Position numbers and translations under genes: made by a program. Positions 30,802 to 32,071 of a stretch of 34,532 bases of DNA are shown piece after piece; position 1 is the first letter of the stretch, and every line of letters starts with the position of its first letter. The notes under the pieces were generated by a model that was not told the origin of the DNA, did no database searches, and was given only the letters and a program-made list of their open reading frames with translations. Location of the stretch: NCBI GenBank assembly GCA_003209225.1, contig QCRZ01000009.1:1-34532 (forward strand), given 5' to 3'. This DNA comes from Pelagibacteraceae bacterium AG-464-B04 (GTDB taxonomy: Bacteria > Pseudomonadota > Alphaproteobacteria > Pelagibacterales > Pelagibacteraceae).

Positions 30802-30830
30802 TTGACAAAAGTCTTGGTTTTTAGTACAAA
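30802..30830 (+). promoter_or_regulatory. Sigma-70 promoter of the metX operon
   Basis: A perfect -35 TTGACA (30802-30807) and a -10 TACAAA (30825-30830) are separated by exactly 17 bases. Transcription would start at about 30836-30838, right at the first bases of the SAM-II aptamer. Confidence 0.8.
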
Positions 30831-30833
30831 ATG

Positions 30834-30887
30834 TTTGCGCTGATTTAACTGAATTGCGAGCGCTTAAAAAAAAGCAGCTAAAAAGGG
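30834..30887 (+). ncRNA. SAM-II riboswitch (metX leader)
   Basis: The segment follows the SAM-II pattern known from metagenomic metX leaders. It has P1 GCGCT/AGCGC (30837-30841 with 30859-30863), the conserved loop TGATTTAAC, the loop segment TTGC (30854-30857), and the invariant 3' strand AGCTAAAAAGGG. TTGC can pair with GCAG (30874-30877) to form the pseudoknot helix. SAM-II aptamers fold as an H-type pseudoknot around SAM and turn off methionine genes. It sits directly after a strong promoter and upstream of metX, the expected gene. The identification is by recall of the consensus and by base pairing. Confidence 0.92.
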
Positions 30888-30892
30888 TTTTT

Positions 30893-30917
30893 GCCCAGTC
30901 TAGCTGGGCTTTTTTTT
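30893..30917 (+). terminator. Intrinsic terminator in the metX leader (riboswitch expression platform)
   Basis: A six-pair stem GCCCAG/CTGGGC (30893-30898 with 30904-30909) closes a five-base loop and is followed by eight T residues (30910-30917). It lies between the SAM-II aptamer and the metX start, so it should cut transcription before metX. The bases CAGCTA of the aptamer (30875-30880) are complementary to TAGCTG (30901-30906), and GGG (30885-30887) to CCC (30894-30896). An alternative antiterminator is therefore possible. Confidence 0.85.
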
Positions 30918-30931
30918 ATTTGTGACCAAAA

Positions 30932-32071
30932 ATGAACAATAAAATAAAAAATATAAAAAAATTAATTGTTAAAGATTCTCTTGAGCTTGATTGTGGGAAG
31001 TTAATTAAAAATTTTTCTATAGCTTATGAAACGTATGGAACCTTAAATAAAAACAAAAGTAATGCTATACTTGTTTTTCATGCTTTAACAGGTGATCAGT
31101 TTGTTACAAATATTAATCCAGTAACTAATAGAGAAGGATGGTGGGCAACTGCAGTCGGTCCTGGAAAAGCAATTGATACTAATAAGTATTTTATCATTTG
31201 TTCAAATGTTTTGGCTGGGTGTATGGGTAGCTTCGGACCAGGAGAAATCAATCCAGAAACTAACGAATTATTTGGCACTACATTTCCAATTATTACAATT
31301 AAAGATATGGTCAAAGCCCAAATATATTTATTAAAATATTTGGGAATTGAAAAATTACTTTCAGTTGCCGGGGGATCTATGGGTGGTATGCAAGTTCTGC
31401 AATTTAGTTCTTTATATCCTGACAAGACCTATTCAGCTATCCCGATTGCATGTAGCGCAAGCCATTCGGCACAAAACATAGCGTTAAATGAATTGGGTCG
31501 ACAAGCAATCATGGCAGATCCTAATTGGAATAAAGGTAATTACTTTAAAACAGATTTATCTCCTAATAAAGGTCTTGCTGTTGCTAGAATGGCAGCTCAT
31601 ATAACTTATCTTTCTAAAAAAGGTCTTCAGGAAAAATTTGGAAGAAAATTACAAGAAAAAGGTAGTTTAAAATTTAGTTTTGATGCTGATTTTCAAATAG
31701 AAAGCTATCTTCGTTATCAAGGATCAAATTTTGTAGATAGATTTGATGCAAATAGTTACCTTTATATTACCAGGGCTATGGATTATTTTGATTTAGAAAA
31801 ACAATTTAATGGTAATTTATCGCTCGCTTTTAAAAACACTAAAACTAAATTTTGTGTAATTTCATTTTCATCTGATTGGCTCTACCCTACAGCAGAAAAT
31901 AAAGAAATTGTTATAGCCTTAAATGCTTGTGGAGCAAATGTAAGCTTTGTTGAAGTAAATTCAGACAAAGGCCATGACTCTTTCTTGCTAAATGTTCCTG
32001 AATTTTTAAAAACTCTAAGTGAATTTTTAAATTCAATATATAATGAAGTAAGTAATGAAAAAAGAATTTGA
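30932..32071 (+). CDS. metX: Homoserine O-acetyltransferase
   Basis: This 379-residue alpha/beta hydrolase-fold enzyme activates homoserine with an acyl group from acetyl-CoA (succinyl-CoA in some homologues) at the entry to methionine synthesis. The nucleophile S149 lies in AGGSMGGMQ, the aspartate in [10 protein letters not shown] and the histidine in [18 protein letters not shown] is the oxyanion-side segment. The gene lies behind a promoter, a SAM-II riboswitch and a terminator, and is expected to be repressed when SAM is plentiful. It overlaps metW by 17 bases. Confidence 0.96.

Follow-up and report, generated by a model that had tools for sequence, protein, structure and literature searches.

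The metX leader of a member of the Pelagibacteraceae (SAR11), whose genome comprises 0.97 Mb in 50 contigs, very probably contains a SAM-II riboswitch that, judged from its sequence and from folding models, attenuates the transcription of metX and probably also of metW. The leader is part of the analysed stretch of 34,532 nucleotides, referred to here as the window. The sequence elements of the switch are present, they are conserved among relatives and the two competing structures are energetically mutually exclusive. The positions assigned in the initial annotation to CAGCTA, GGG, CCC, TAGCTG and the terminator hairpin were exact.

The metX leader and its aptamer

Along the gap of about 190 nt between hisC and metX, a promoter, a SAM-II aptamer, an intrinsic terminator and the metX start follow one another (Table 1), which places the element upstream of a methionine/SAM gene (metX–metW). 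The hisC gene, located upstream of the metX leader, is oriented divergently; the terminator was therefore ruled out as the end of an upstream gene. The promoter was absent from the output of a consensus promoter scan because its -10 region is weak. The arrangement TTGACA..TTTAGTACAA was found at a constant distance from P1 in the metX leaders of the same genus and of the sister genus, and the transcript probably starts a few nucleotides 5′ of P1.

Table 1. Features of the metX locus in the window.
Feature	Position	Strand	Description	Basis
Promoter	30804–30831	+	-35 TTGACA from 30804, spacer of ~17 nt, -10 TACAAA	kept in relatives
SAM-II aptamer, complete	30837–30887	+		P1, L1 and conserved elements in order
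P1 stem	30837–30863	+	30837–30841 with 30859–30863, enclosing L1 GATTTAA and conserved TTGC (30854–30857)	RF00521/RF01726 alignments
L3 linker and 3′ strand	30864–30887	+	A-rich linker and SAM-II 3′ strand AGCAGCTAAAAAGGG	pocket bases match 2QWY
Antiterminator	30875–30906	+	CAGCTA 30875–30880 with TAGCTG 30901–30906; GGG 30885–30887 with CCC 30894–30896	folding, conservation
Intrinsic terminator	30893–30917	+	GCCCAG-TCTAG-CTGGGC (30893–30909) and T8 (30910–30917)	terminator scan, relatives
metX	30932–32071	+	homoserine O-acetyltransferase; putatively regulated gene	NF001209, 3.4e-155, 516.5 bits vs. cut-off 331
metW	start 32055		downstream of metX	TIGR02081, 231.6 bits

All elements of the H-type pseudoknot (P1, L1 GAUUU, UUGC and the 3′ GCUAAA) were present in the window in this order. 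P2b is formed by GCUAA with UUGC and the short P2a by CU (30849–30850) with GG (30885–30886), and the innermost P1 pair, 30841–30859, changes on both sides across relatives. The spacing of the elements was that of the crystallised 2QWY RNA, except for one extra L3 base in the window. The pocket bases of 2QWY (G8, U11, U12, U20, U21, G22, C23, G42, C43, U44, A45 and A46) were identical to the window bases aligned with them (30842, 30845, 30846, 30854–30857 and 30877–30881), including those of the SAM-pocket triples U11-U21-A45, U12-U20-A46 and G8-C23-G42 listed for 2QWY (PMC3764141).

No Rfam matches at the gathering threshold were obtained in the whole window. The RF00521 match at 30827–30902 reached 23.6 bits (E = 0.0018) against a gathering score of 36, and the RF01726 match 23.3 bits against 44; the former was still the best RF00521 match in its genome. 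None of the 297 Pelagibacteraceae genomes reached the RF00521 cut-off, and the locus containing the crystallised SAM-II sequence (L044) scored 34.1. The low score is thus a property of the model and not the sign of a missing aptamer. At E ≤ 0.02, RF00521 matches were found in 222 of the 297 genomes but in none of the 14 controls. Since the cut-off serves as an operational filter and does not treat Pelagibacteraceae fairly, SAM-II membership was based on the structural features. By these features the window RNA is a SAM-II aptamer, predicted to bind SAM, and with its complete core the identity that the initial annotation had taken from the family consensus held. Annotation at the Rfam gathering score misses the SAM-II elements of Pelagibacteraceae, which are among the most abundant bacterial groups of the ocean, since none in the searched genomes reaches it. 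Low-score matches to RprA, the PyrG leader and PrrF over the same site align mainly to the terminator and were rejected as chance.

A terminator predicted to compete for the aptamer strand

The terminator scan returned one site, against 0.2 expected, and this intrinsic terminator, located between the aptamer and the gene, is retained in relatives. Between them, its loop and 3′ arm carry the antisense of the SAM-pocket strand GCUAAA of the aptamer. The antiterminator has a 4 × 4 internal loop (AAAA/AGTC) and a six-base apical loop (TTTTTG), exactly as drawn in the initial annotation.

Folding was calculated at equilibrium for nested structures (ViennaRNA without pseudoknots), the bound state being imitated by the blocking of bases. 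P1 with the antiterminator (-18.6 kcal/mol) and P1 with the terminator (-17.7 kcal/mol) were nearly isoenergetic. In the growing apo transcript, the GGG/CCC hairpin was formed first and the full antiterminator at 30906. The apo ensemble was divided about 50:50 between the terminator and the antiterminator at 3′ ends 30909–30912 and was the antiterminator from 30915 on, where the U tract also paired with the A-rich linker. Blocking of the pseudoknot/pocket-strand bases resulted in P(terminator) = 1.00 at every tested length from 30909. The energies, the outcome of folding with and without the aptamer constraint and the conservation presented below indicate that an aptamer strand is shared with a competing antiterminator, in agreement with the mutually exclusive pair of structures proposed beforehand.

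In the mechanism envisaged, transcription would start just 5′ of the aptamer. At low SAM levels, the 3′ strand, comprising the SAM-pocket bases G30877, C30878, U30879 and A30880 together with GGG (30885–30887), would pair with the loop, the 3′ arm and the 5′ arm of the terminator; once formed, the antiterminator would prevent termination and metX would be transcribed (ON). With SAM bound, the P2 pseudoknot would sequester this strand; the GCCCAG/CTGGGC hairpin would then form ahead of U8 and RNA polymerase would stop before metX (OFF). For the window RNA, we infer SAM binding, actual termination and a response to SAM; no in vitro termination data for SAR11 were found in the literature.

The CAGCTA/TAGCTG complementarity was compared with random and shuffled hairpins, because the null of compact strong hairpins of the genome (n = 9 in the stretches searched) was too small. 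A random hairpin of 6 bp with a 5-nt loop contained a run of at least 6 bp complementary to CAGCTAAA with a probability of 0.0067, and with the native stem fixed and the loop alone random the probability was 0.019. For the window alone these figures are weak evidence, and together with the conservation across relatives they are strong.

Conservation and alternative modes of control

The fetched loci yielded 224 SAM-II motif matches, corresponding to 210 distinct leaders, of which 110 had a strong terminator. A window-type terminator was present in 38 distinct metX leaders of several genera. The 3′ half of its loop (the last three bases, TAG) and the following CTGGG were invariant in all 38 (TAGCTGGG), while the spacer between the aptamer and the terminator varied freely. 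The antisense to the pocket strand in the loop and 3′ arm was thus kept in 38/38 leaders. In 19 distinct representative leaders, the terminator stem was 100% paired and the long helix of the antiterminator was paired in 96.5% of helix cells. Covariation, for which the initial annotation had suggested a search in both structures, was detected in the terminator stem as a compensatory change; none was found in the antiterminator across the 19 leaders, and none is expected there because the aptamer side is invariant, fixed by ligand binding.

A separate terminator type (ACCACCG; GACCACCG-CTTTAG-YCGGTGG), found in genera g2, g3, g9 and g12 and preceding bhmT/SAM-V and metF-like genes, bears its own antisense copy (GCUAAAGCG/CGCUUUAGC), setting CGCTTTAGC against the aptamer GCTAAAGCG. 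In the other Pelagibacterales family (f2), the pairing partner of CAGCTAA is the loop CTTAGTTG or CATAGCTG. Against shuffled hairpins (300 shuffles per pair), aptamer/terminator complementarity had p ≤ 0.05 in 48 and p ≤ 0.01 in 42 of 55 distinct Pelagibacterales pairs, which are related by descent and are not independent tests. The native matching of aptamer tails with terminators ranked 1 of 24 permutations, swaps with other types being worse. The antiterminator is supported by the conserved terminator loop and by the recurrence of this antisense in separate terminator types, and it is likely that SAR11 terminators acquired an antisense loop repeatedly. Terminators lacking such a loop were found in L067, of the same genus, and in the metY tandem leader of the window's own genome (L271). 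The apo antiterminator was favoured at equilibrium in 0 of 17 f2 entries and was not favoured in 14 of 55 GCCCAG-type entries; a kinetic decision would therefore have to be assumed where the terminator is preferred without SAM.

These data make it highly improbable that the stem combined with chance produced the CAGCTA/TAGCTG complementarity as a by-product, with termination being constitutive or controlled otherwise. Half of TAGCTG is set by the stem, the loop-only chance amounts to 1.9% and the antiterminator does not covary, but the loop TAG persists although the spacer varies, the antisense recurs in separate terminator types and the A-U to G-U changes in the stem leave the 3′ U intact, as pairing with the aptamer A requires.

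Translational control, in which the SAM-stabilised P2 would hide GGG as a Shine–Dalgarno sequence and the hairpin would be incidental, was judged quite unlikely. The crystallised metX SAM-II has been described as such a Shine–Dalgarno-hiding switch (PMC10907184, PMC6061858, PMC12434664), an in-frame AUG follows GGG in 14 of the 38 distinct window-type leaders and the Shine–Dalgarno sequence of S. meliloti metA lies far upstream of the start codon (PMC9373788). In the window, however, 44 nt separate the end of GGG from the metX AUG, with the hairpin and U8 in between; no AUG stands close behind GGG, which is paired with CCC in the predicted apo fold. Of the 38 leaders, 24 lack the in-frame upstream AUG, lost by small changes, and in the others this AUG is at most a few nucleotides away from GGG. 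A clear translational SAM-II of the same family differs in having GCTAAAGGAGG and an AUG within 6 nt (L084 and L063). No Shine–Dalgarno sequence was found before the window metX ATG, nor one within P2 at a working distance from it. A Shine–Dalgarno-like sequence occurred within 20 nt before the true metX AUG in one of the 38 leaders, and such sequences accompany 20% of long ORFs in the examined stretches of the window genome.

Dual control, that is, SAM-induced termination with a terminator hairpin near the AUG that limits translation of the read-through mRNA, appears rather doubtful for the window. The metX AUG follows the U tract by 2 nt in 26 of the 38 leaders and dual platforms were described by Barrick and Breaker (PMC2258182), but in the window 14 nt lie between the U tract and the AUG, which is unstructured and has no Shine–Dalgarno sequence to hide. 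Attenuation of transcription by strand exchange is the most likely reading.

Other SAM-II elements were also seen. In the metX leaders of genus g4 (L088–L164, e.g., L093 1107–1200), SAM-II was followed directly by U5–9 without a GC-rich terminator. The strand CTCNCAATTC, with small variants, was located after the U tract in 87 of 88 leaders and is antisense to the aptamer TGAATTGCGAG with one constant mismatch. No covariation was detected in this g4 strand, and the complementarity of L093 alone was modest relative to shuffles (10/500). The g4 leaders may have a different expression platform, in which the pseudoknot abuts the U tract and the anti-aptamer strand then locks the read-through RNA. 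The SAM-II-like elements L084, L063, L076, L248 and L250 (P1 GTCC/GGAC, GATTTA, TTGC and GCTAAAGGAGG) have a Shine–Dalgarno sequence within P2 and an AUG at most 6 nt away, with a short ORF next (55–59 aa in L084 and L063); by their sequence they look truly translational. L271 (G000:C22:8680-8745) is a degenerate SAM-II-like element with AATTT instead of GATTT, followed by its terminator, with SAM-V in tandem, before a metY-like gene. In L246, a SAM-II and a CTTTAG terminator precede a gene with a metF-like start. This putative metF would widen the set of SAM-II-regulated genes.

The crystallised SAM-II RNA and other known systems

The 52-nt SAM-II RNA used in biophysics, with its sequence printed in PMC8494917, is the CRYSTALLISED RNA, and the 2QWY triples fit its numbering (PMC3764141). 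A pattern search revealed the exact 52-nt sequence in two SAR11 genomes (G117 and G176) and a version with two mismatches in two more. In each of these genomes the RNA runs directly into GATGCCCAGTTTAGCTGGGC-T9-GG-AUG of metX, the terminator after the exact sequence in G117 and G176 being GCCCAGTTTAGCTGGGC-T9. The MetX N-terminus at these loci (MNIKLENIKKL) aligns with that of the window MetX, and the AUG after T9-GG is therefore the metX start; as in the window, the terminator is of the GCCCAG type and no Shine–Dalgarno sequence accompanies the metX AUG.

This Sargasso Sea metX SAM-II (PDB 2QWY) belongs to the same gene and the same bacterial family as the window element, which reads as an attenuator, whereas papers as late as 2025 still call the 2QWY RNA a translational switch; it is cited as a classic or a rare one that has no alternative folds. 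The genomic setting, with a terminator and then metX, argues for attenuation. It is likely that the 2QWY RNA acts in nature as a transcription attenuator, its pocket strand being swapped between the ligand pseudoknot and the terminator-loop antiterminator. Studies of this RNA by folding, NMR, FRET and simulation interpret their results as Shine–Dalgarno exposure; if the natural RNA directly precedes a terminator, their data ought to be reinterpreted as co-transcriptional competition. A full-length test construct can be obtained directly from the genomic sequence.

The initial annotation had singled out a transcriptional SAM-II as deserving attention. The wiring is indeed unusually clear, but descriptions or predictions of SAM-II elements with terminators go back to 2005, in S. 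meliloti metZ (PMC9373788) and Agrobacterium metA (PMC1273637), in SAM-II/SAM-V tandems (PMC9481103) and in SAR11 bhmT and metX (PMC5069961). The S. meliloti metZ and Agrobacterium metA systems share with the window the aptamer core, the position between a promoter and a methionine gene, the downstream terminator and the OFF logic. The part that seems to pair with the terminator in GC-rich alphaproteobacteria is AGGTCGG, the long P2 strand, although only 6 of the 14 sampled cases reached p ≤ 0.05 individually. In the window, by contrast, P2a is limited to about 2 bp, and the partner of the loop and 3′ arm of the terminator is the pocket strand GCUAAA. The Pelagibacter bhmT SAM-II/SAM-V tandem (PMC9481103, PMC11508383) likewise has SAM-II followed by a terminator, and relatives such as L029 show this arrangement, their loop being antisense to GCUAAAGCG; unlike the tandem, the window metX leader has no SAM-V part. 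The window element is one more SAM-II with a terminator, of a kind already known, and its points of interest are the wiring through the pocket strand and the new role proposed for the crystallised RNA.
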